30,466 bases of DNA from a virus (IMGVR_UViG_3300007276_000191:1-30466), one strand, 5' to 3'. Shown: positions 858 to 23,158, numbered from the stretch's first letter. Made by a program: numbers and translations. Notes: generated by a model not told the origin, from the letters alone.

Positions 858-1891
858 TGGCTGGTAATATGTTTAGTGGATTTATTCAAGCTGGTCAGAA
901 TCGCTCTAATGCGATAGGTCAGGGCATTGGTGCGCTAGCTCAAGGCTATCAAAACAAACAAACCGCCGAAGCTAATACGCAGAAGCAGCAACAGGCTATG
1001 CAGCTAATGAGTCAGGCATATAGCCTAGCCGATTCAGACCCGCAGGCGTCACAGGATGCGTTTTTGAAAGCAGTTCAGATTGCGCCTGAGTTTGTATCTC
1101 AGGCTACTGGAGCGATTAAGCAAATGCGCGCCTCACAAGGTCAGGAATCCAGCCTAAGCCAGCAAGAGTTTGAGCAGCTAACCACTGGAATGACGCCTGA
1201 AGAAAAAGAGCAGGCGCGCCGTATTAAACTTGGACTATCGCCAAGGGCAGTAGGTTCTAGTGCAATGACAATATCAGACACCGGAAAAGCTGGGGATGTT
1301 GCTGAATCTGAATCAATTATCGCCGGTGCTAAAGCTCAGGCTGCTGAGGAAGGCAAGTCACGCGGCATTTCAACAACTTCCAGTATTGTAGGTAAGGCCA
1401 AGGCTGATATTGCACAAGCTGTTAAGGCTGCCGAAGTGCAAGGCAAGAGCAAGGGCGAAAGCGTGACGCAGCTAGATTCAGCAAAGGCGGCGCTACCAAG
1501 TTTGATTGGAGTTGTTGAATCTCTGAAAACACTTGCGCCCGTGGCTACAAATACTTATTCAGGGAAGGCTTTTGACTTCTTAGCTAAAGAGGCTGGATTT
1601 GGAGCAACCAAAGGTGCAGAGGCTAGAGCTAAGTTTATCGCAATTATCGATAACCAAGTTTTACCGCTACTAAAGCAAACTTTTGGCGCTGCATTTACAG
1701 CAACGGAAGGTGAAGCCCTAAAGAAAACGATGGGTGATCCAGACGCCAGCGCAGAGGCTAAAATAGCTCAGCTAAACTCATTTATTGAAAACAAAGTCAG
1801 AGAGATTGAAGTTAAAGAGCGCGAACTTAGTGCTGAAAGTCAGCCACAAGAGCAGAAGTCAGAAAATATTATTTCATGGGATAGCATGTAA
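857..1891 (+). CDS. Putative DNA ejection/internal virion protein (position of P22 gp20)
   Basis: This 344-residue protein begins with a Gln/Asn/Gly-rich segment (FSGFIQAGQNRSNAIGQGIG) and continues as a long Ala/Gln/Glu-rich, helical, coiled-coil-like protein. No enzymatic motif is recognisable. Low complexity, position second of three in a block upstream of the tailspike, and TAATG coupling to both neighbours fit an ejected pilot protein like P22 gp20. The assignment is by context rather than by motif. A segment around residues 210-320 is less repetitive and probably forms the folded helical core. Confidence 0.5.
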   Translation: MAGNMFSGFIQAGQNRSNAIGQGIGALAQGYQNKQTAEANTQKQQQAMQLMSQAYSLADSDPQASQDAFLKAVQIAPEFVSQATGAIKQMRASQGQESSLSQQEFEQLTTGMTPEEKEQARRIKLGLSPRAVGSSAMTISDTGKAGDVAESESIIAGAKAQAAEEGKSRGISTTSSIVGKAKADIAQAVKAAEVQGKSKGESVTQLDSAKAALPSLIGVVESLKTLAPVATNTYSGKAFDFLAKEAGFGATKGAEARAKFIAIIDNQVLPLLKQTFGAAFTATEGEALKKTMGDPDASAEAKIAQLNSFIENKVREIEVKERELSAESQPQEQKSENIISWDSM

Positions 1892-9000: not shown

Positions 9001-9231
9001 ATGAGAAAATCAGCATTAGTTAAAGTAGTTTCAACCGGAACGCTAAAGGTTCCATCTGACTTTCCTTACAGGGATTTTGTAAGACTAAGCATGGTAGGCG
9101 ATACGGAAGACCTAGAGAACTTACGCTTCGAGCTTGCAGCAATTAAAGATCAAGTTAATCGTGACATATCGCGCTTCGGTATGAACTTAGTAGATTTTCG
9201 TATTGTGATCAAACTGGAATTTGGAGAATAA
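9001..9231 (+). CDS. Hypothetical early protein (76 aa)
   Basis: This small mixed alpha/beta protein (MRKSALVKVVSTGTLKVPSD; later a helix ENLRFELAAIKDQV and a final strand FRIVIKLEFGE) has no recognised domain. It is the first gene behind the rightward promoter at 8923-8967. A GGTGGGG ribosome site lies at the usual distance from ATG. The following gene starts two bases after its stop. Confidence 0.55.
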   Translation: MRKSALVKVVSTGTLKVPSDFPYRDFVRLSMVGDTEDLENLRFELAAIKDQVNRDISRFGMNLVDFRIVIKLEFGE

Positions 9232-9233
9232 AC

Positions 9234-9638
9234 ATGAAAACACTAACAGACGCACAAGTATTCCAGCACATGGCTGATAACGTACGGGCTGGCAAGAGTC
9301 CTGTGGATTGGTTGCAGGCAAAGTCAGGAACAGTAGAGTGGATAGACGCGCCAGAAAGTATCTACGTTGGTGAATTGATATCAGGATATTTTGAATTCCG
9401 CCTCACCCCTCGAACTCACACTATCAACGGCTACGACGTGCCAGCGCCTGAGACGGAAGCGCCTGATGTTGGGGTTAATTTCTGGACGCTCAATCCTTGG
9501 GTTGATTGCGGGATAACTAAAGAAGTGTGGAAAAATACTAATACAGATCAATGCGCCCTACGCAACGGCCTATGGCTATCAGAAGAGGACGCTACGGCTA
9601 ACGCCAAGGCATTGCGCGGGGAAAATCCGCATGACTAA
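9234..9638 (+). CDS. Hypothetical phage protein (134 aa)
   Basis: Its most recognisable portion is INGYDVPAPETEAP followed by a Trp-rich stretch (FWTLNPWVDCG). Phage proteins with a similar NGxxVPAPExEAP segment occur in early regions and are unassigned. The N-terminal half is helical (DAQVFQHMADNVRAG). It overlaps the next gene by eight bases, which supports operon translation. Confidence 0.6.
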   Translation: MKTLTDAQVFQHMADNVRAGKSPVDWLQAKSGTVEWIDAPESIYVGELISGYFEFRLTPRTHTINGYDVPAPETEAPDVGVNFWTLNPWVDCGITKEVWKNTNTDQCALRNGLWLSEEDATANAKALRGENPHD

Positions 9639-13175: not shown

Positions 13176-13292
13176 ATGAACGCTCTAGTTCTAATCGCAC
13201 TGTACGCCGGATCCGCTTTTTTGATCGTTGGCTTTATAGTAACGCTGGAGATATTTTTAATTGCTTATGAAGATTCTAGGGGTGGAGAATGA
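13176..13292 (+). CDS. Small membrane protein (38 aa)
   Basis: It consists almost entirely of one long hydrophobic segment (MNALVLIALYAGSAFLIVGF and on through IFLIAY) with a short polar tail (EDSRGGE). GGGGG before TTGAT ATG gives a strong ribosome site, one base after the replication gene stop. Its stop overlaps the next ATG. Its role is unknown. Confidence 0.55.
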   Translation: MNALVLIALYAGSAFLIVGFIVTLEIFLIAYEDSRGGE

Positions 13293-13452
13293 TGACTAAC
13301 AAACAAGAGCAGACCAGCCGAGAGGCGTTTGAAGAGTTCCTATTGCCCGAGGGCTTCGCATTGATCTTAATGAATTTGGCGTTTATAGGGATAGACTTGT
13401 GCATAGATTATGGCAGACATGGCAATCCGCTACGCAATGGGCTGATAGATAG
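13289..13452 (+). pseudogene. Small phage gene broken by a frameshift
   Basis: The first 25 codons (ending REAFEEFLLPEGFAL) are in the frame of ATG 13289. From 13363 the natural continuation lies in another frame, reading DLNEFGVYRDRL and then VHRLWQTWQSATQWADR before TAG at 13450-13452. The combined protein resembles small phage proteins with a REAFE start and a WQAWQAA-type end. The original frame continues to 13504 with unlikely sequence. One base seems to be missing near 13360, so the gene is probably inactive unless this is a sequencing error. Confidence 0.6.
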
Positions 13453-13497
13453 GCGCAAACCGTCCTATTGCTTGGTCGGTGAGTGTGGTTTTATAAC
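13450..13497 (+). promoter_or_regulatory. Variant TTGGC / TCCTAC element (copy 4)
   Basis: TAGGCGC starts at 13450 and CCGTCCTATTG lies at 13460-13470, again with 13 bases between block starts. A -10 candidate is TTTTAT at 13489 (spacing 20) or TATAAC at 13492-13497 (spacing 23). The -10 region overlaps the left arm of the first attC-like site. It would transcribe the ORF at 13564. Confidence 0.45.
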
Positions 13498-13548
13498 CAC
13501 TTAATTTGCGACTGGCGTTAGCCAGTCCGAAACATTTATTTGTTATGC
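13491..13548 (+). repeat. attC-like imperfect palindrome 1
   Basis: The outer arms are TTATAAC (13491-13497) and GTTATGC (13542-13548). The inner perfect 7-bp stem GACTGGC/GCCAGTC has loop GTTA (13510-13527), and TTT/AAA pairing lies outside a 2x2 mismatch. This is the weakest of five sites, because the outer arms also fit the promoter and the inner hairpin could stand alone. Confidence 0.4.
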
Positions 13549-13563
13549 TTTGGAGGGTAGACA

Positions 13564-13737
13564 ATGATTAAGAAGTTACTAACAAGAGCAGGGCTTATTG
13601 TAATGATTCCGCTTCTGCCGATTGCGCTTTTAATAGATATTGCTATTGGCGACATTATGACGGGGGTTAAAACAACCATGAAGGCAAAAACGGTTGAACA
13701 ATATAGGCTCTGGGTGAATTACTGGCAAGAGGCATAA
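13564..13737 (+). CDS. Small membrane protein in a cassette-like unit (57 aa)
   Basis: A short basic start is followed by a hydrophobic helix (LIVMIPLLPIALLIDIAIG) and a polar C-terminal half ending LWVNYWQEA. GGAGGG provides the ribosome site. The TAA stop lies inside GCATAAC, the left arm of attC-like site 2, and attC-like site 1 lies just upstream. The unit therefore has the form of an integron gene cassette: one ORF followed by its recombination site. No function can be assigned. Confidence 0.55.
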   Translation: MIKKLLTRAGLIVMIPLLPIALLIDIAIGDIMTGVKTTMKAKTVEQYRLWVNYWQEA

Positions 13738-13779
13738 CAATAATAGACGCGGGCTTGTCCCGCGCATGAAGTGTTATGA
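13732..13779 (+). repeat. attC-like imperfect palindrome 2
   Basis: The left arm is GCATAACAA, with the ORF stop inside. The right arm is TGAAGTGTTATGA (13767-13779). The inner stem is CGCGGG/CCCGCG (13748-13764). The left side has one more base than the right between the arm and the stem, as the extrahelical bases of attC sites do. Length is 48 nt, near the short end for attC. TGAAGTGTTAT is repeated exactly in sites 3 and 5. Confidence 0.55.
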
Positions 13780-13800
13780 AACAACAAGCAGGAGGTAAAA

Positions 13801-13974
13801 ATGAGAATTAGCAAAAAACAACTGAAGCTAATCGTGCTGCTAGAGCGCAGTGGAGGCATGTTCCGCAACGAACTAAATGAGATGCAATACCCGAAGAGCC
13901 TTATAGATGCCCTGATAGATAAAGGGCTGGTTACTGAATTTAAAGGAAAACTCACAAGTTACACGGCGCGCTAA
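13801..13974 (+). CDS. Small winged-helix-like protein (57 aa)
   Basis: The sequence MRISKKQLKLIVLLERSGGM, then a second helix and LIDALIDKGLVTEFKGKLTS, reads as a miniature winged helix: recognition helix, GL turn, short beta wing. AGGAGG gives a very strong ribosome site. It is directly downstream of attC-like site 2 and 18 bases upstream of the helicase gene. A DNA-binding or regulatory role is plausible from the fold only. Confidence 0.55.
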   Translation: MRISKKQLKLIVLLERSGGMFRNELNEMQYPKSLIDALIDKGLVTEFKGKLTSYTAR

Positions 13975-13992
13975 TAATAATCAGGGGGATTA

Positions 13993-15333
13993 ATGAACGA
14001 TAGTAAGTTGTACAGTCAAGAAGCTGAGCAAAGCGTTCTCGGAGCTATCATGCTCGATGAGATAGCGTTTGATATTGTGACTGAGGTAGGACTTCAAGCC
14101 AGCCACTTTTACGGCGGGAATCACAAGCTAGTTTTTGAAGCAATTACGCACTTGTCAGAGAGTGCGCAGCCGACGGACGTTGTAACAGTCGCGGAACGGC
14201 TAGATGTTACAGGCAAGTTAGAAGCAGCAAGCGGGGCGGCTTACTTATCTCGCATGGTAGATATAACGCCGTCAATCGACAATGCCAAAGCCTACGCTGA
14301 AATCATCATAGATCGTTCGCGCAGGCGCTCGCTAGTGGCCCTCAGTGGCGATATTCGCGCGAAGATAGGCGAAGGTGCGGAGACTGAAGAGGTAAAGGAC
14401 TACACGGCCACACAGTTGCAGAGAATGGATGACGACTGCAACACTGGCGACATTATCAGCGGTGACGACGCGCTCAGGCTTGCAATCGAGCGTCTAGATA
14501 GTAGGTTTAATTTTAAAGGCGATGATTGGACGTTTGGAATAGATCAACTTGATAAAATGCTAGTACCTGAACCAAGCCGCGTTATCGGGATTATCGGGGC
14601 GACAAGCTCGGGGAAATCCACGCTAGCCCAAACGGCAGCGGAAACCAGTTTGAACATGGGTATCCCTGTTTTTTACGCGACGATGGAAATGCCACCAGCG
14701 CAAATGATGAACCGCTTTATTTCATCCGCTGGCAATGTCAACCGTGACTTTCTAAGAGACCCGCGCGGATTTGCTCATCCAGACGAGCAGTGGCCACGAT
14801 TGGCCGCCGGAACGCAAAAGCTAAAAGGCTTACCGCTCACTATCGACGGAGGCGCACGCCAGACAATTTCAACGCTAACTGCAAGAATTAAGGCGTGGGT
14901 GCGAAAGATGAAAGCGGAAGGCCACACGGAGCGGCTTTTGGTTGTTGTTGACCATGTTCACTTGATGAGTATTCCGGGTAAGGACATCGTCAATGAGCTG
15001 GGTAATATTTCCAAAGGCTTGAAGTTCCTAGCGCTAGAAACCGGAGTTTGTATTCTTCCACTATTTCAAGTAAACCGAGGCATAACAAACAGGCCAGACC
15101 GTAGGCCGATGAAGCATGACATTCGTGATTCTGGTAAAATTGAGGCCGACTTAGACGCTGTTATCGGTGTTTATCGTGATGAGATATACAACCCAGACAC
15201 AGAGTATAAAGGCGTTGCTGAGGCTATCATAAGTAAGAGTCGAGACGGTGAGCTGGGAACGGCTTACATGAAAGACGACTTGCGTTTTAGTCGATTTGGA
15301 AACCTAAGCGATTCATTCCAGAACCAAAACTAG
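13993..15333 (+). CDS. dnaB: Replicative DNA helicase, DnaB family
   Basis: This 446-residue protein has the two-domain DnaB plan. The N-terminal helical domain (residues 1-110) includes EAEQSVLGAIMLDEIAFDIV. The C-terminal RecA-like ATPase has Walker A GATSSGKST (202-210), a MEMP segment (231-234), Walker B VVVDHVHLM (317-325) and a downstream QVNRG (H4-type) motif. It unwinds DNA ahead of the phage fork as a hexamer. A GGGGG ribosome site precedes the ATG. Its TAG stop lies within the next promoter element (GGCGC, 15333). Length and motifs are normal for the family. Confidence 0.95.
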   Translation: MNDSKLYSQEAEQSVLGAIMLDEIAFDIVTEVGLQASHFYGGNHKLVFEAITHLSESAQPTDVVTVAERLDVTGKLEAASGAAYLSRMVDITPSIDNAKAYAEIIIDRSRRRSLVALSGDIRAKIGEGAETEEVKDYTATQLQRMDDDCNTGDIISGDDALRLAIERLDSRFNFKGDDWTFGIDQLDKMLVPEPSRVIGIIGATSSGKSTLAQTAAETSLNMGIPVFYATMEMPPAQMMNRFISSAGNVNRDFLRDPRGFAHPDEQWPRLAAGTQKLKGLPLTIDGGARQTISTLTARIKAWVRKMKAEGHTERLLVVVDHVHLMSIPGKDIVNELGNISKGLKFLALETGVCILPLFQVNRGITNRPDRRPMKHDIRDSGKIEADLDAVIGVYRDEIYNPDTEYKGVAEAIISKSRDGELGTAYMKDDLRFSRFGNLSDSFQNQN

Positions 15334-15374
15334 GCGCGTAATGTCCTACCAAAAAGCCCCAGCTTAGCTATAGT
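15331..15374 (+). promoter_or_regulatory. TTGGC / TGTCCTACC promoter of the recombination genes (copy 5)
   Basis: TAGGCGCG starts at 15331, overlapping the helicase stop. TGTCCTACCA lies at 15342-15351 and TATAGT at 15369-15374, spacing 19. ATCAAC follows at 15381. A CCCC/GGGG pair flanks the -10 region. It drives erf, exo and ssb. Confidence 0.75.
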
Positions 15375-15399
15375 GGGGTTATCAACATAGGGGATTGAT

Positions 15400-16101
15400 A
15401 TGAACGAAGTAACAACATTTTCACCGCAAGCATTGCTTGAAAAAGCAATGAAGTCTAATGATATTGCGGTACTAGAACGAATCATTGATTTAAACGAGCG
15501 CATTGTAAACCGTAACGCACAATCTGAGTTTGTCGCGGCATTGTCTCGATTCCAGCGTGATTGTCCAGAAGTTAAAGCTCTGAAGCAGGGGCATAACTAC
15601 AAGTACGCGCCACTGCAAGACATTATCGCTCAAGTTAAGGCGCTGCTAGTTGAGTGCGGCCTGTCTTATCGTTTTGAGCAAAGTCAGACAGAAAAGGAAA
15701 TCACTGTAACCTGTTTGGTTACACATCTATCTGGGCACTCTGAAGCGACGACTGTATCAGCAATGCCAGACACGGCAGGTAGTAAAAACAGCGTGCAGGC
15801 GATTGGTTCCACGATTACTTACTTACGCCGGTATTCATTCACGGGCGCACTAGGCATTGTTACCGCTGATGTGGATTCTGATGCTCGTCTGGCTGGCCAA
15901 GCTACGCAGGAGTTCACCGACGCTCAAATGATTATGGATATTGAGGCACTAATTGAAGACACCGGTTCAGACCGTGCGAAAGTGTTGCAATGGGTTGGCA
16001 CTTCGGTAGGCGCTGAGATAACAGCATTTAGCCAGCTTTACAAGAAAGACGGCCAGAAAGTCATCAAGCGTCTTAAAGACAAGGCGGCTAAGAATGTTTG
16101 A
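15400..16101 (+). CDS. erf: Erf-family single-strand annealing protein
   Basis: This 233-residue protein has clear ERF family segments: YKYAPLQDIIAQVKALL, GLSYRFEQ, TCLVTHLSGHSEATTV, then DTAGSKNSVQAIGSTITYLR and RYSFTGALGIVTADVDSD. Erf proteins form rings that anneal complementary single strands and promote phage genome circularisation or recombination. It is partnered here with the exonuclease that starts eight bases before its stop. The C-terminal 50 residues are less conserved and helical. GGGGATTGAT before ATG gives the ribosome site. Confidence 0.93.
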   Translation: MNEVTTFSPQALLEKAMKSNDIAVLERIIDLNERIVNRNAQSEFVAALSRFQRDCPEVKALKQGHNYKYAPLQDIIAQVKALLVECGLSYRFEQSQTEKEITVTCLVTHLSGHSEATTVSAMPDTAGSKNSVQAIGSTITYLRRYSFTGALGIVTADVDSDARLAGQATQEFTDAQMIMDIEALIEDTGSDRAKVLQWVGTSVGAEITAFSQLYKKDGQKVIKRLKDKAAKNV

Positions 16102-16762
16102 GTTAGATTTTGCGCAGGGTTCGCCTGAGTGGCTACGCTCTCGAATCGGGATTGTTTCCGCAAGCCGCTTTAAAGACGTTCTAACAGAACCTAAATCTAA
16201 TGCTGACAAAGAGGCTGGTATTCTATCGGTAACGGCTGAGACTTACTTGTACGAGCTTGTAAGTATGATTTTAACCGATGAAGCTCCGAACTTCTCAAGT
16301 GCCGCGACTGACTGGGGGCATGAGAACGAACCTTTAGCACGGCTTGAATACAGCATGATGACTGATAACAATGTCGAAGAGGCTGGAATCTTCTTCCACG
16401 ACAACCGCAAAGCAGGCGCAAGCCCAGACGGATTGGTTGATGATGACGGCATGATTGAGGTTAAGTGCCCATTCAATACCGTGAACCATGTTCGTACTGT
16501 TGTTGCTGGTGATATGCCGAAGGAGCATATGCCGCAGGTTCAGGGTAATTTGTGGATTAATGGCCGTGAGTGGTGCGACTTCATAAGCTTTGACCCGCGT
16601 ATCGAAGGTGATGGGCGCTTGTTTATCAAACGCATATACCGCGATGAAACTTATATCAAAAACATAGAGCGCCGCGTGTTGGCGTTTATTCAAAAGCTTG
16701 ACTTTGTATTGCTGGAATCGTTCAGCATTGCATGGGAAGGCGTAAATAAGGAGGCCAACTAA
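16094..16762 (+). CDS. YqaJ/lambda-Exo-type 5'-3' exonuclease
   Basis: This 222-residue protein has the lambda exonuclease fold motifs: GSPEWLRSRIGIVSASRF near the N-terminus, WGHENEPLARLEY (Glu near 77-79), GASPDGLVDDDGMIEVKCP with Asp112, Glu122 and Lys124 as the D-x(n)-ExK active site, and QVQGNLWINGREWCDFISFD. It degrades one strand of duplex DNA to give 3' tails for Erf to anneal. Overlap with erf (eight bases) and with the SSB gene (TAATG) supports co-production of one recombination machine. Confidence 0.93.
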   Translation: MFELDFAQGSPEWLRSRIGIVSASRFKDVLTEPKSNADKEAGILSVTAETYLYELVSMILTDEAPNFSSAATDWGHENEPLARLEYSMMTDNNVEEAGIFFHDNRKAGASPDGLVDDDGMIEVKCPFNTVNHVRTVVAGDMPKEHMPQVQGNLWINGREWCDFISFDPRIEGDGRLFIKRIYRDETYIKNIERRVLAFIQKLDFVLLESFSIAWEGVNKEAN

Positions 16763-17235
16763 TGGCACATACAATCACTGGGAAACTAAACAAGCCAGCT
16801 AATCAATTCCAAGCTGGCGAATCACTGGGCTTTAACGTGCGGTTAGGCGTTAAATATTACGACCGCAAGACAAATCAGGATGAGTGGACAAATTACAGCG
16901 CGGTTATCTTCTCGAAGAACGCTAACCAGATTGGATACTTGCAACAGGTTTTAGTTGAAGGCGCCGTAGTATCGGTAAGTGGTGAGTCTATCAAAGTCGA
17001 TCAGTACGAAGGTCAAAACGGATCGTCTATAACTCTTGAGTTACAGAACGCACGACTAGAGTATGCCTACAATCCGCAAGGGCAGGCTAATGCTCAACCT
17101 CCGCAGGCTTACCAGCAACCGCAACAGCAGGCACCGCAATACCAGCAGCCGCCACAAGGCTATGCGCCACAACAGCAGGTTCAGCAAGGCGCATACAACC
17201 AACAACAGCCGGTTCCGCCGGGCCATCGTCGATAG
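16762..17235 (+). CDS. ssb: Single-stranded DNA-binding protein with Gln/Pro tail
   Basis: The first 110 residues form an OB-fold SSB (VRLGVKYYDRKTNQDEWTNY, then FSKNANQIGYLQQVLVEGAV, VSVSGE). The C-terminal 45 residues are almost only Gln, Pro, Ala, Tyr and Gly. The protein ends PVPPGHRR. Bacterial SSBs normally end in an acidic DDDIPF-type tip that recruits partners, and that tip is absent here. It acts with Erf and Exo directly upstream. The next gene starts inside its stop (TAGTG, a GTG start). Confidence 0.85.
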   Translation: MAHTITGKLNKPANQFQAGESLGFNVRLGVKYYDRKTNQDEWTNYSAVIFSKNANQIGYLQQVLVEGAVVSVSGESIKVDQYEGQNGSSITLELQNARLEYAYNPQGQANAQPPQAYQQPQQQAPQYQQPPQGYAPQQQVQQGAYNQQQPVPPGHRR

Positions 17236-17402
17236 TGTCTGACCTACTAACCCGCGCTGAGAAATTCGGCGCGATTAAACCAACAGAGTGCGCTTGTGAC
17301 CACCAGTTAATGGGCACAGGCGCAATATTCTTCCAGTCGGTCGGTTTGCTCAAGTGCGCAAACTGTCTAGGCTGGCAGCTAATAAGGAAACCTATCGAAT
17401 GA
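17235..17402 (+). CDS. Small zinc-ribbon-like protein (55 aa)
   Basis: It starts with GTG at 17235, sharing a base with the SSB stop. Four cysteines are arranged as CAC (with a following His) and, 20 residues later, CANC, a likely zinc ribbon. Between them lies a hydrophobic strand pair (MGTGAIFFQSVGLL). The end LGWQLIRKPIE is compact. The stop overlaps the next ATG (ATGA). Role unknown; a nucleic-acid or protein adaptor is possible. Confidence 0.55.
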   Translation: MSDLLTRAEKFGAIKPTECACDHQLMGTGAIFFQSVGLLKCANCLGWQLIRKPIE

Positions 17403-17704
17403 ATACGGATGATTTAATTAAGGCGATTGAAGCATGGGCGAAGATGCGAGAGCTTGATAATGGAGACTCAGCGCGTCAAATGCTCAAGACGGTTGAAGAA
17501 GTAGGTGAGGTTGCTTCAGCGCTAGCTAAAGGCCAGCGTGACGAGCTACAGGACGGGATTGGTGACGTTGTTGTTACTCTAATCATATTAGCTATGCAAA
17601 ACGGCATGACGCTGAATGAGTGTTTGCTTGCGGCATGGCTTGAGATTAAAGACCGTAAAGGCAAAACGGTGGATGGTGTTTTCATTAAGTCTGAAGACCT
17701 ATGA
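17399..17704 (+). CDS. MazG-like nucleotide pyrophosphohydrolase
   Basis: This 101-residue protein has the MazG/all-alpha NTP-PPase metal-binding pattern: KTVEEVGEVASALAKG (EExxE-like) followed by DGIGDVVVTLIILA (ExxD-like second motif). Such enzymes hydrolyse NTPs or dNTPs and, in phages, may adjust nucleotide or (p)ppGpp pools. ATG 17399 is chosen because it gives a normal ATGA overlap with the previous gene and the natural N-terminus. Its TGA stop lies at the left boundary of attC-like site 3. Confidence 0.8.
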   Translation: MNTDDLIKAIEAWAKMRELDNGDSARQMLKTVEEVGEVASALAKGQRDELQDGIGDVVVTLIILAMQNGMTLNECLLAAWLEIKDRKGKTVDGVFIKSEDL

Positions 17705-17749
17705 CAAAGAGTTTGCGCGCCGCAGGTCGCACAGAATGAAGTGTTATTG
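17699..17749 (+). repeat. attC-like imperfect palindrome 3
   Basis: The left arm CTATGACAA (17699-17707) contains the MazG stop. The right arm is TGAAGTGTTATTG (17737-17749). The interior is GC-rich with TTGCG/CGCA pairing but is more degenerate than in sites 2 and 5. The right core GTTATTG overlaps TTGGCGC, the first block of the next promoter, by three bases. Confidence 0.5.
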
Positions 17750-17789
17750 GCGCTAAGTGTCCTACCCGCCAAGGAAGGCACGGTATAGA
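17747..17789 (+). promoter_or_regulatory. TTGGC / TGTCCTACC promoter (copy 6)
   Basis: TTGGCGCTAAG starts at 17747, TGTCCTACCC lies at 17758-17767, and TATAGA at 17784-17789, spacing 18. It begins within the core of attC-like site 3, so it sits at the very start of the following cassette-like unit. It drives the ORF at 17814. Confidence 0.7.
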
Positions 17790-17813
17790 CTATAAAAAAA
17801 ATGAGGAAATGAG

Positions 17814-18128
17814 ATGAACAATGAGATGAACAACGTATTTGATTTTAACGCACTACTGAAGAAAGCGAACGAGCGGGATGACTTTCCAATGCCGGGATTA
17901 GAGCGACGAAACTTAGACGCAGCGATGAATCAATGCAGCCGCGTTGATACCTTAATAGGCATGGCTTGCGATGACTTAGATTTAATGTCAGACATCATCG
18001 AATTGGCTTTTGATTCAAGCAAAGAGAAAGCGCGTGAGTTTGACGCCGGAATCGCTGAGCATATCAAAGCCAACCCTGATGGACGGATAGCGCAGGTTCT
18101 TAAAGCAGCGCTTCAGGATTATGTTTAA
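17814..18128 (+). CDS. Hypothetical helical protein in a cassette-like unit (104 aa)
   Basis: An acidic, helical protein (FDFNALLKKANERDDFPMPG; later LIGMACDDLDLMSDIIELAF) with no recognised family. AGGAAATGAG is the ribosome site for ATG 17814; a second ATG at 17826 is in frame. It has its own phage-type promoter and ends with TAA inside GTTTAAC, the left arm of attC-like site 4. Promoter, ORF and recombination-like site thus form one unit of about 455 bases. Confidence 0.6.
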   Translation: MNNEMNNVFDFNALLKKANERDDFPMPGLERRNLDAAMNQCSRVDTLIGMACDDLDLMSDIIELAFDSSKEKAREFDAGIAEHIKANPDGRIAQVLKAALQDYV

Positions 18129-18204
18129 CCCCTTGCTTTATGGCTGAGAAGCGACAGCGCAGCAGTCCTAGCGAGGAACGAGCGATAACAGCAATTTGTT
18201 AGGT
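18123..18204 (+). repeat. attC-like imperfect palindrome 4
   Basis: The outer boxes GTTTAAC (18123-18129) and GTTAGGT (18198-18204) match the attC consensus pair RYYYAAC and GTTRRRY. Arms 18124-18144 and 18182-18203 align through TAAC, TTGCT, TTAT and GC, with one extra unpaired base on the right arm, a feature of attC. The interior contains the small hairpin TCCT-AGCG-AGGA. Length is 82 nt. Confidence 0.6.
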
Positions 18205-18211
18205 ATTGAAT

Positions 18212-18415
18212 ATGGCAATTATTTATCAAATTAAACAGCACGTAGAAACAATAAACAAAGGTTGGCTTGAGGTCGTTGCAACAGAAGAGATCGAGCGAAT
18301 TGCAAAGCTCACATATGAGCGGTTGTGTGCAGAATATCCAGATGAATATTTTGAACTAATAAAATCGGAGTCCACAAATTCTTGCATGGCATTCACAACC
18401 AAACAAGATACCTAA
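18212..18415 (+). CDS. Hypothetical protein in a cassette-like unit (67 aa)
   Basis: A small helical protein (MAIIYQIKQHVETINKGWLE, then IERIAKLTYERLCAEYPDEY) with a short polar tail; no known family. The ribosome site TTAGGT is part of the right core of attC-like site 4, as happens in integron cassettes. TAA at 18413-18415 lies inside the left arm of site 5. An in-frame TTG at 18206 is an alternative start. The unit between the two cores is about 257 bases. Confidence 0.55.
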   Translation: MAIIYQIKQHVETINKGWLEVVATEEIERIAKLTYERLCAEYPDEYFELIKSESTNSCMAFTTKQDT

Positions 18416-18461
18416 CAAGAATGGACGCGGGCGGAACGTCCCGCGCTCTGAAGTGTTATTA
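18410..18461 (+). repeat. attC-like imperfect palindrome 5
   Basis: The left arm is ACCTAACAA, with the ORF stop inside. The right arm is TGAAGTGTTATTA (18449-18461). The inner stem is CGCGGG/CCCGCG (18426-18445). It shares TAACAA-n-AAT-n-GACGCGGGC and the right-hand TGAAGTGTTAT with site 2, so the two belong to the same subfamily although 4.7 kb apart. Length is 52 nt. Confidence 0.6.
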
Positions 18462-19536: not shown

Positions 19537-19625
19537 TGACAACAAAACTACAAGAAGAGCGACTATCTGAGATAGTAAAGAATAGCCGCCAGCAGCGGTC
19601 AGTCAGTTATCTGAGTCTGGCATAA
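19536..19625 (+). CDS. Short ORF, possible truncated relative of the gene at 20138 (29 aa)
   Basis: It begins MTTKLQEERLSEIVKNSRQQ, close to the beginning of the 20138 gene (MTTTLQKELLFEIAKY). It stops after 29 residues, before the winged-helix part. It starts on a TAATG overlap. It could be a duplicated and cut remnant or a short real peptide. Confidence 0.35.
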   Translation: MTTKLQEERLSEIVKNSRQQRSVSYLSLA

Positions 19626-19688
19626 TTAAATAAAACTCGGCCGTGTTGTGATTACGGATAAGTATTAGCTAGAGATAGAGGGTAACGA

Positions 19689-20141
19689 ATGAAGAAAAGA
19701 AAACAGAACAACATGAACAAGCGTTTTTCACAGGTTGCCAGAGGTGCAATCAAAGATTTGGCGATTTGTTTTGTGGAAACCAATCCAAAAGCACAGGTTG
19801 TCAGTCTGAAACATAAGGCAAAAGTCAGACCATCCGAAGCCATGATCCGTGCGTTTACCTCCGTTCCGTACAAGTGGACTATATATCTTTCAGTAATAGG
19901 AAAGGACTGGGCTGGTAATCTCTACACGAAGTCGCTTGAGGTTGAGACGGGTGTGCCATGCTTGCAGGATACTCTAGCTGAACAATTGTGGCCAATTCAT
20001 AACGAGTTGCGTGATGGAATGCCGGAGCGCGACTATATATGTAGGGCATGGATTGCCAGTCCTCACGGGTATTCGTTCGATGAGGCAGAAGCTATGGAGT
20101 ATTTCGATATGATCGGCGTTGCGGAGCGTGATGCGGCATGA
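19689..20141 (+). CDS. Hypothetical protein (150 aa)
   Basis: A basic N-terminus (MKKRKQNNMNKRFSQVARGA) is followed by a mixed alpha/beta body (SVPYKWTIYLSVIGKDWAGN, then LWPIHNELRDG) and an acidic end. No recognised family. GAGGGTAACGA before ATG is the ribosome site. The 63 bases upstream hold no clear promoter. The next gene starts four bases before its stop. Confidence 0.55.
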   Translation: MKKRKQNNMNKRFSQVARGAIKDLAICFVETNPKAQVVSLKHKAKVRPSEAMIRAFTSVPYKWTIYLSVIGKDWAGNLYTKSLEVETGVPCLQDTLAEQLWPIHNELRDGMPERDYICRAWIASPHGYSFDEAEAMEYFDMIGVAERDAA

Positions 20142-20332
20142 CCACAACACTACAAAAAGAACTGCTATTTGAGATTGCAAAGTACACTCAGACACCGACT
20201 AAGACACGCAGAGGCTTTAGCGCAGAATGGAACAAGACGCTGGTAAAGCAGCTCATTGCGCTAGACCTGGTGACTGTAAAATTTGGCAGTGTAGTTCTGA
20301 CTGAAAAGGGGTGGCAGGAAATTGGCAAATAG
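20138..20332 (+). CDS. Small winged-helix-like protein (64 aa)
   Basis: The sequence ends in a winged-helix-like unit (WNKTLVKQLIALDLVTVKFG, then VVLTEKGWQEIGK: helix, strand, wing). Such small proteins occur next to ninG in many phages. ATGA overlap upstream and an 11-base overlap with ninG downstream point to coupled translation. DNA binding is plausible but untested. Confidence 0.55.
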   Translation: MTTTLQKELLFEIAKYTQTPTKTRRGFSAEWNKTLVKQLIALDLVTVKFGSVVLTEKGWQEIGK

Positions 20333-20909
20333 CAAAAAGCGATGCAAGCACTGTAAAAGCTACTTTGAAGCTGAATCAATGGTAGTGGTGCCCGCTGGAA
20401 CCTTCTGTACTTACGAACACGCTACGGAGTGGGTTAAGACAAAGGCTGGTAAGGCAAGCGAAGAAAAGGTTCGTAAGTCTAGTAATATTGAGGCGAAAAA
20501 AGCAATAGTGCCAAGGTCTAAGTTGTTATCTAGATTGCAAACACTTGTAAACCAATGGATTGTTCATGTTAGAGATAAGTATGAGCCATGCTGCACATGT
20601 GGAGAATTAAAGGAAAGCATAAAGTATGATGCTGGCCATATGATTAGTCGCGGGGCGTCACCAGCTCTTAGGTTTGAGTTAACCAATATACATAAGCAGT
20701 GTTCAGTAAAGTGCAATATTTACGGATCAGGCAAAAGAAAAGAGTATGAGTTATTTATTGTAAGTAAATACGGAAAAGATCATCTTGATTGGCTTAATGG
20801 TCCTCACCCATCTCTTAAGGAGAAGTTTCCTGACAATGAATCAATAAAAAAAGAAATTACATTGTATAGGAAGATACTAAGAGATGCTGGCTTAAGGCCT
20901 AATTTGTAG
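20322..20909 (+). CDS. ninG: NinG-type nuclease/recombination protein
   Basis: This 195-residue protein matches NinG (Rap). It has a Cys pair CKHC near the N-terminus, a Lys-rich linker, then CCTCGE (residues 90-95), KYDAGHMISRGASPALRFEL (101-120), NIHKQCSVKCN and KRKEYELF. Lambda NinG is a structure-specific endonuclease acting on recombination intermediates, with an HNH-like core. The start is TTG at 20322, supported by an AGGAA site at the right distance and by the lack of an earlier ATG. The coding sequence is AT-richer in its second half. Confidence 0.9.
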   Translation: MANSKKRCKHCKSYFEAESMVVVPAGTFCTYEHATEWVKTKAGKASEEKVRKSSNIEAKKAIVPRSKLLSRLQTLVNQWIVHVRDKYEPCCTCGELKESIKYDAGHMISRGASPALRFELTNIHKQCSVKCNIYGSGKRKEYELFIVSKYGKDHLDWLNGPHPSLKEKFPDNESIKKEITLYRKILRDAGLRPNL

Positions 20910-21595: not shown

Positions 21596-21777
21596 AATTC
21601 GACGGCAGGGAGTCGCTCTACACTTTGTTTATGATTCGAGAGTTTGGCGAAGAGTTCGTAATACACATGCAAGACGTTAAGAAAACAACGGTTAAACGAA
21701 ACACTAACGACTATGATGATTTCATCAAGACGGCTAAAGCTGAAGTTGCGAAACATAAAAAGAGGCTAGGGATATGA
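21592..21777 (+). CDS. Hypothetical protein (61 aa)
   Basis: A small basic helical protein (MKFDGRESLYTLFMIREFGE, then DDFIKTAKAEVAKHKK). No known family. It overlaps the homing endonuclease by four bases (ATGA) and the next gene by four. Confidence 0.5.
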   Translation: MKFDGRESLYTLFMIREFGEEFVIHMQDVKKTTVKRNTNDYDDFIKTAKAEVAKHKKRLGI

Positions 21778-21947
21778 AAGAGAAAGACTTTAGCAATCCG
21801 GTTGAAGTTGCGATATTTATTGCGCATTACAATGAATGGCGTCGTGGTGGCGATATTGAGCATCCACACCCGAAAGAGCTAGGTCTAGCGCTAGATGCGG
21901 CGGTTGTTCATTTGCTAAAGATTAAAGATTTGAATGTTGGCGCATAA
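21774..21947 (+). CDS. Hypothetical phage protein (57 aa)
   Basis: The sequence reads IAHYNEWRRGGDIEHPHPKE and then LGLALDAAVVHLLKI. Short phage proteins with NEWRRG followed by a PxPxELGxALDxA segment are common and unassigned. The last codons (VGA stop) overlap the TTGGCGC block of the next promoter. ATGA overlap with the gene upstream. Confidence 0.6.
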   Translation: MKEKDFSNPVEVAIFIAHYNEWRRGGDIEHPHPKELGLALDAAVVHLLKIKDLNVGA

Positions 21948-22002
21948 CTTCCTACAAATAATTTAAAATAATTCTTGTATTCTTTAAATAGTTGGGTATA
22001 AT
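21937..22002 (+). promoter_or_regulatory. TTGGC / TTCCTAC promoter with long spacer (copy 7)
   Basis: TTGGCGCATAA starts at 21937 and TTCCTAC lies at 21949-21955. The TATAAT box is at 21997-22002, 41 bases away instead of 19, an addition of about two DNA turns. A TTGTAT lies 16 bases before TATAAT and could serve as its own -35. ATCAACTA follows at about 22009. It drives the ORF at 22036. Confidence 0.6.
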
Positions 22003-22035
22003 GATTACATCAACTAGAGAAACGGAGCAACAAAA

Positions 22036-22200
22036 ATGGAAAACTTAGAAATCGGCAAAGAATACAATGTTAACGGAAAAGCAATGACTCTTAGGTGGGT
22101 ACGGTATGAGCATAGTTACTCAGAATTGCATTACCATTTTAGTGATGGATTTTTCTCTAGCGGCCTGCGTGAATCTGAGCTGAAAAGGTTTGTAAAGTGA
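22036..22200 (+). CDS. Hypothetical protein (54 aa)
   Basis: A small beta-rich protein (MENLEIGKEYNVNGKAMTLR, then RYEHSYSELHYHFSDGFFSS) that looks like a miniature barrel. No family recognised. AACGGAG before ATG gives a ribosome site. The following GTG start lies inside its stop. Confidence 0.5.
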   Translation: MENLEIGKEYNVNGKAMTLRWVRYEHSYSELHYHFSDGFFSSGLRESELKRFVK

Positions 22201-22358
22201 CCCCGTCCCAGCAAGCAAAAAGCGTAGGGCTGAAAAGCCTTACGCAGGTTAGCCAGATAACAGGCGTATCACTAAACACGCTCACAAACTGGCACCGAGA
22301 TAAACCTGAACTATTTAGAATTGTTCTTCTTGGCTGTGTTACCGATATTGGCGCATAG
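22197..22358 (+). CDS. Small HTH-like protein, GTG start (53 aa)
   Basis: It starts with GTG at 22197, overlapping the preceding TGA. The protein contains a helix-turn-helix-like segment (LTQVSQITGVSLNTLTNWHR, then DKPELFRIVLLG) as in small DNA-binding phage proteins. The final codons (IGA stop) overlap TTGGCGC of the next promoter. A regulatory role is possible. Confidence 0.55.
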   Translation: MTPSQQAKSVGLKSLTQVSQITGVSLNTLTNWHRDKPELFRIVLLGCVTDIGA

Positions 22359-22665: not shown

Positions 22666-22742
22666 GCGCCCGTAGCTCAACTGGACAGAGCATCGGTCTT
22701 CTACACCGAGGGTTGCAGGTTCGACTCCTGCCGGGTGCGCCA
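22666..22742 (+). tRNA. tRNA-Arg (anticodon UCU), CCA encoded
   Basis: A complete cloverleaf. The acceptor GCGCCCG/CGGGTGC has one G-T pair; the D stem is GCTC/GAGC; the anticodon stem TCGGT/ACCGA has loop CTTCTAC, giving anticodon TCT; the T arm is GCAGG-TTCGACT-CCTGC. Discriminator G is followed by encoded CCA. It reads AGA codons, rare in many hosts. It immediately precedes the large structured RNA region. Confidence 0.95.
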
Positions 22743-22998: not shown

Positions 22999-23130
22999 AG
23001 AACACCCTCTAACCGGAGGTGATTGACTAAGCGCAGTTAGTCGAGCGCATTGCCTAAGCCGCTGGGAAGCGTGATGGGGCACCACTAACGCGCAGTACGT
23101 GAGCCGAAGGTCTAACGCTACGCTGTGTTA

Positions 23131-23158
23131 TTGATAATAGAAAGCAAAGTTGTATAAT
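23131..23158 (+). promoter_or_regulatory. Sigma70-like promoter at the start of the pseudoknot domain
   Basis: TTGATA (23131-23136), a 16-base spacer and TATAAT (23153-23158). Transcription would begin near 23165, one base before the first stem of the pseudoknot at 23166. This could make the 3' domain an independent RNA of about 380 nt. Confidence 0.5.

Follow-up and report, generated by a model that had tools for sequence, protein, structure and literature searches.

The window analyzed here is the whole of the 30,466-bp IMG/VR virus record IMGVR_UViG_3300007276_000191, which may be incomplete. Judging from its marker proteins (portal, terminase, ejection protein, DnaB helicase, Erf annealase, exonuclease, and NinG/Rap), it is a fragment of a P22-like tailed marine phage. 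We focus on a series of imperfect hairpins bordering small open reading frames (ORFs) of this phage, some of which are like the attC sites of integrons. An initial annotation, made from the sequence alone, had described five of them; all the palindromes and sequences that it described are present in the window, and a sixth, weaker site had been overlooked. In line with its statement that the window lacks an integron integrase, no tyrosine recombinase was found there. More broadly, PF00589 had no match in the window or in the records L001-L004, L014, L015, L018, L019, and L022, which may themselves be incomplete.

Hairpin sites and their match to attC models

The six sites are the following, R1 and R2 being the two attC covariance models used in this work.

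13491-13548, plus strand: S1, a probable attC 3' of ORF71, with its bottom strand on the plus strand; 16.4 bits with R1 (E = 0.07 in 156 kb of phage sequence) and 16.9 bits with R2
13732-13779, plus strand: S2, a class B hairpin (TAACAATAATAGACGCGGGC...TGAAGTGTTAT), the fixed right border of variable block 1; folding z of -3.7, not an attC by the models
17699-17749, plus strand: S3, a class B-like hairpin
18123-18204, plus strand: S4, a predicted attC with one extrahelical base and its bottom strand on the plus strand; 34.2 bits with R1 (E = 3.9e-7 in the same 156 kb) and 33.9 bits with R2
18410-18461, plus strand: S5, a class B hairpin, the fixed right border of variable block 2; folding z of -3.6, not an attC by the models
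23083-23133, plus strand: S6, a weak attC-like site; 8.4 bits with R2, filters off

The left arms of four sites hold a stop codon, as initially described, and it lies in the left box: GCATAAC in S2 (13732-13738), CTATGAC in S3 (17699-17705), GTTTAAC in S4 (18123-18129), and ACCTAAC in S5 (18410-18416). We also recovered the sequence TGAAGTGTTAT said to be common to S2, S3, and S5, of which the window has exactly three copies, one at each of these sites. The extra unpaired base reported for S4 is a single one, placed by the alignment in the right arm.

The bacterial attCs used for modeling come from regions adjoining integron integrases (TIGR02249), in the order of the sole genome that has a copy of the S2/S5 hairpin. 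R1 was built from 19 bacterial integron attCs and finds 123 sites in these source regions; R2 was built from 106 attCs. S4 is an attC by score and predicted structure, since its score matches the range of the three sites found by the same model in our positive control, the Pseudoalteromonas phage PH101 (34-42 bits). It has core boxes of the form RYYYAAC...GTTRRRY, a paired inner stem, an extrahelical base, and a score above background. R2 missed it with default filters and recovered it with the filters off. S1 is probably an attC, with a borderline score, and S6 is a weak candidate. In contrast, S2, S3, and S5 have no significant match to the models on either strand, even with filters off. The initial view of five attC-like sites thus stands for S4, is borderline for S1, and is not supported by the models for the other three.

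The negative control had no match at E<=10 in 878 kb, made of one Marinomonas phage region and 97 virus contigs fetched by a short pattern. These contigs stem from a looser pattern scan of IMG/VR that yielded chance matches. In a separate control, unrelated phage loci had no attC match, the two matches obtained there sitting in a real integron. Tetrasphaera phage TJE1 gave no R1 match and, therefore, R1 does not cover actinobacterial-type sites. A pattern-plus-stem scanner was discarded in favor of the covariance models, as its 84 + 59 candidates in the window, vs 50-82 per strand in shuffled sequences, showed no specificity.

Relatives of the phage were compared with it base by base: the close relatives L001-L004, whose helicases are 97-99% identical, to which L014 and L015 were added. 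Across the window phage and its relatives, the models point to about a dozen weaker sites. Within the 156 kb, R1 identifies L015:3228-3296 (29.3 bits), L019:5513-5560 (23.7 bits), L014:12429-12506 (19.0 bits), L015:2930-2989 (18.0 bits), and three further sites at 13-15 bits in L002 and L014; R2 adds L014:5752, L014:11746, L002:7863, L015:2680, and L001:7464. The window has one strong and one borderline site, 4.6 kb apart, and L015 has two to three sites within 1 kb. The most integron-like stretch in the phage group is in L015 (2680-3697, minus strand), where four attC-like sites alternate in tandem with ORFs of 108, 72, 71, and 132 aa. In the contig of L019 (G302), attC matches occur at 1049-1111 (plus strand, 24.7 bits) and 39385-39432 (minus strand, 23.7 bits).

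We consider it very improbable that these hairpins arose by chance or are of an ordinary kind, such as weak terminators, and merely look like attC. Their position at gene ends would fit this explanation, the sole Rfam match is a tRNA, and the folding of reverse-strand DNA, which exceeds that of shuffled sequence for S2, S5 (z values above), and S1 (z of -2.8), is no better than shuffled for S3 and S4 (z close to 0). However, the stems are not followed by a T-run on the plus strand, the terminator-like matches at S2, S3, and S5 being on the minus strand, and the models were highly specific in the controls. Moreover, relatives place different stems with the same core boxes at the same position.

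Exchange of units at the left core box

The alignments indicate that close relatives exchange whole units, made of a hairpin and a gene, at the left core box (TAA↓C, the arrow marking the break). Variable blocks lie between conserved genes, from ORF71 to S2, from MazG/dUTPase to S3, from ORF104 to S5, and in the region of S6. In each of them, the common sequence breaks off at ...TAAC and starts again at C-AANAATAG... or C-AAAGAG..., which are left boxes. The units and the genes that delimit them are listed here.

13497-13737, plus strand: exchangeable unit 1, consisting of C, the S1 stem, GTT, and ORF57 (13564-13737), ending in TAA
17354-17704, plus strand: MazG-like pyrophosphatase gene left of S3, where L002 has a dUTPase
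17814-18128, plus strand: ORF104, found behind S3 in the window, L002, and L014
18129-18415, plus strand: exchangeable unit 2, consisting of C, the S4 stem, GTT, and ORF69 (18206-18415), ending in TAA

According to the relatives, units extend from left box to left box (13497-13737, 17705-18128, and 18129-18415). The limits initially proposed (13542-13773, 17744-18198, and 18199-18455) are off by one hairpin. The left flank of S1 is common to the window, L001, and L014 up to TTTTATAAC, after which come three unrelated stems, and the content of unit 1 differs between identical borders in L001, L002, L003, and L014. Similarly, ORF104 is common to three phages up to GTTTAAC and is followed by three unrelated stems; in place of unit 2, L002 has two different units and L014 a single different one. 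Between the TAA of MazG and the C of S3, L014 has an extra unit made of a stem, GTTATATGG, an ORF of 60 aa, and ATATAA, and L015 has a whole extra unit at the left box of S6. The 223-bp insert of L002 at S6 lies at the right box and is not what a clean G↓TT insertion would give. L004 is without the S3 hairpin.

Taking as a switch a change from at least 75% identity on one side to at most 50% on the other, a switch falls at the left box in 19 of the 35 pairwise comparisons made and at the right box in 4, two of these being due to a small indel behind S5. With six sites and six phages, the comparisons are not independent of one another, and at S6 one or two of the switches counted for the left box are off by a single base. 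Hence, the expectation that units would come and go among related phages with breaks in the GTT core was borne out as to the core box, but the breaks fall at the left AA↓C and not at the right GTT. In three cases (two genes in L014 and one in L003), the next gene has its start codon within the attC stem, and the stem and the downstream gene must therefore move together. These ORFs are L014:12459-12659, L014:5787-6011, and L003:2972-3154, with their first residues also inside the stem (MSEAKKDESDLSSLL, MINSEERKDKSELSALL, and MSNAKKSESDLSELL), and two of the three resemble Lar-type zinc-finger proteins.

The side of the break bears on the polarity of the models. Among attC pairs of bacterial integrons that have the same stem, 25 are alike on the model-downstream side only and 3 on the other side only, and 59 of 66 gaps have the cassette gene on the strand opposite to the model (same strand in the remaining 7). 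These two results show that R1 and R2 describe the bottom, recombinogenic strand of attC, where cleavage canonically occurs at the left box, AA↓C, with G↓TT as its equivalent on the other strand. The polarity of the phage junctions is thus that of integrons. A non-canonical recombination of the top strand at the left box was considered and ruled out by the same counts.

The orientation of the genes is a different matter, since phage genes are on the same strand as the model at all 14 sites (Fisher p = 8e-11, or 1e-5 when each of the six phage records is counted once). At none of the 14 does a gene in sense precede its own attC. The layout is the same in PH101, whose genes are on the strand of the attC bottom strand and where two sites are alike in the stem and the downstream side and unlike in the gene-end side. 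Whereas a bacterial cassette is a gene followed by its attC, the predicted phage cassette is an attC followed by a gene, i.e. its gene is inverted. The initial annotation had the layout exactly as in integron cassettes, which this inversion contradicts. Each unit ends in three bases that are both the stop codon of its gene and part of the next core box, a double role that follows from the attC preceding the gene.

Breaks at the foot of a hairpin could also arise if a replication fork stalled there and jumped to another TAAC without any recombinase. The loss of the S3 hairpin in L004, between TGTAA repeats, is typical of such slippage. Yet, TAAC has only 4 nt and is common, and the landings are always at the foot of another hairpin. 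Bacterial integrons, whose recombinase is known, also show the same polarity. We consider template switching unlikely to account for the exchanges, though somewhat less so than chance hairpins.

Recombination functions, class B hairpins, and the origin of exchange

The phage has recombination functions of its own, encoded by the following genes.

15400-16762, plus strand: Erf annealase and exonuclease genes (phage recombination system)
20322-20909, plus strand: NinG/Rap junction endonuclease gene (phage recombination system)

Their presence is consistent with an alternative where the hairpins are conserved intergenic sequences, either regulatory or remnants of attC, serving as short homologies for swapping by Erf, exonuclease, and Rap. 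In lambdoid and P22-like phages, modules are swapped around linker or boundary sequences, which are short, conserved, and located at gene borders, and the hairpins are like them in marking the borders of swaps. The stems of S2, S3, and S5 are kept while the neighbors on both sides differ, as expected of linkers. The window has also lost a block of 1.6-1.8 kb, found behind the helicase in L001, L002, and L014 between two copies of a palindromic 18-mer; it looks like a deletion by recombination between these copies, hence a homologous one. On the other hand, the stems at S1, S3, and S4 are unrelated and their homology is restricted to TAAC, yet the break is there every time. S4 and other sites match the attC model by structure and not by common sequence, unlike linkers. 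This explanation has, in our opinion, perhaps one chance in a handful of being the correct one.

The 18-mer itself (TWGGCGCNNANNGTCCTA) has 8 copies in the window at <=1 mismatch, against 0.02 expected, and several of them have a TATAGT-like box about 20 nt later. It is probably a phage operator or promoter, as its arrangement suggests.

13450, 15331, 17747, 22348, and 25173, plus strand: copies of TWGGCGCNNANNGTCCTA
21937, plus strand, 8834 and 4904, minus strand: variant copies

The phage also has a tRNA-Arg (TCT) gene (22666-22742, plus strand).

S2, S3, and S5, the class B hairpins, mark a constant right-hand limit of variable blocks, the variable units lying at their left box. S2, for instance, is retained in L001, L002, and L003 despite different upstream genes. 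An alignment of nine copies of the S2/S5 type, taken from seven records, shows conserved ends (TAAC...TGARGTGTTAT). In L019, a 51-kb phage contig unrelated in other respects, an SSB-like gene is preceded by a 47-bp copy that matches S5 exactly between TAAC and GTTAT; in a metagenome-assembled genome (MAG) of Oceanospirillaceae, a close copy also precedes an SSB-like gene, within a prophage-like region. A blastn search of S5 against phage records found nothing, and the 5' half of class B is in no clear excess over a reversed-pattern control in 390 genomes of the order of this MAG. As regards attI, a fixed double-stranded docking site next to intI with cassettes inserted at its G↓TT, the constant position of class B hairpins and the variable units on their left have to be weighed against the absence of intI and the folding of these sites into hairpins. 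We envisage three possible natures for them, namely divergent attCs, attI-like docking sites, or passive, homologous linkers. The same MAG has integron-integrase matches (G001:C31:52949-53458, minus strand) that cover only model positions 1-131 and 273-314 in an open frame of 261 aa, as if internally deleted.

Taken together, we think it probable that true integron-type attCs separate small exchangeable genes of these phages and that a host integrase acting in trans, with the annealing system of the phage, moves the units. The unit would be [C + attC stem + GTT + gene ... TAA], with the bottom strand as the phage coding strand and the cleavage point AA↓C placed directly after each stop codon. 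The integron integrase of the host bacterium would exchange strands on the folded coding-strand attC, made available when phage DNA is single-stranded during replication or recombination, and Erf, exonuclease, and NinG/Rap may then spread the units via their conserved flanks. In the Vibrio cholerae integron, bottom-strand selectivity is linked to the replicated strand (PMC11023631). A more ambitious version, where an integrase-less cassette system is distributed over phages, with attC-first cassettes, class B hairpins recurring in unrelated phages as attI-like docking sites, and a host integrase shuffling the units during infection, is doubtful at present.

Several observations weigh against the reading that we favor. 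No phage record has an integron integrase, S2, S3, and S5 are outside the attC models, S1 and S6 are borderline or weak, and some of the 14 phage sites score only 13-19 bits. The relatives are few, six records of which some are short, and homologous recombination could also move units. Genes were also gained or lost at hairpin-free places (window 9005-9630, 13286-13300, 19580-20138, and 21762-22347); therefore, not all turnover uses attC-like sites.

Phage cassettes and known integrons

The initial annotation had suggested that the phage captured cassettes, perhaps through a host integrase acting on folded single-stranded phage DNA. A capture from a bacterial integron is not supported by the cassette gene ORF57, as its sole relative detected is in a phage gene cluster without attC. 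ORF69 and ORF104 have no homologue in the phage records, and no Pfam family was found among the small ORFs tested. The attC sites of virulent phages were so far known from few genomes, the evidence for their use being restricted to laboratory assays.

Nor are attC cassettes in phages as unusual as first thought. As already published, clusters of attC sites lacking an integrase (CALINs) with working sites occur in virulent phages, namely PH101, TJE1, and Polaribacter phage P12002L; two attCs of PH101 were functionally validated, and IntI1 recombines phage sites in an assay (Qi et al. 2023, PMC9892861). The sites described here are like these CALINs in associating attC with small genes in the absence of an integrase, and S4 scores close to the PH101 sites. 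They differ, as far as that account allows the comparison, in being dispersed over several loci, in the exchange of units at the core box among wild relatives, and in the fixed class B hairpins at the borders. With the sedentary chromosomal integrons of bacteria they share the structure of attC and the polarity of bottom-strand cleavage; unlike in these, we found no intI, attI, or Pc, the gene comes after the attC, and units are few and scattered. The inversion of genes, the exchange at core boxes among wild relatives, and the recurrent fixed hairpins were not found in the portions of Qi et al. 2023 that we consulted or in the literature retrieved by keyword, a coverage that excludes subscription papers and preprints. 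Hence, the inversion of cassettes, their exchange between relatives in the wild, and the docking-like, fixed hairpins appear to be new.

Differences in units with junctions at the core box, observed between wild relatives, are evidence that attCs are, or were, used in phage evolution. Since the genes are consistently inverted, our results suggest that phage cassettes form a pool of their own, with the recombinogenic strand as the coding strand, rather than being bacterial cassettes in transit. Whether host integrons drive the turnover of phage gene content thus becomes directly testable.

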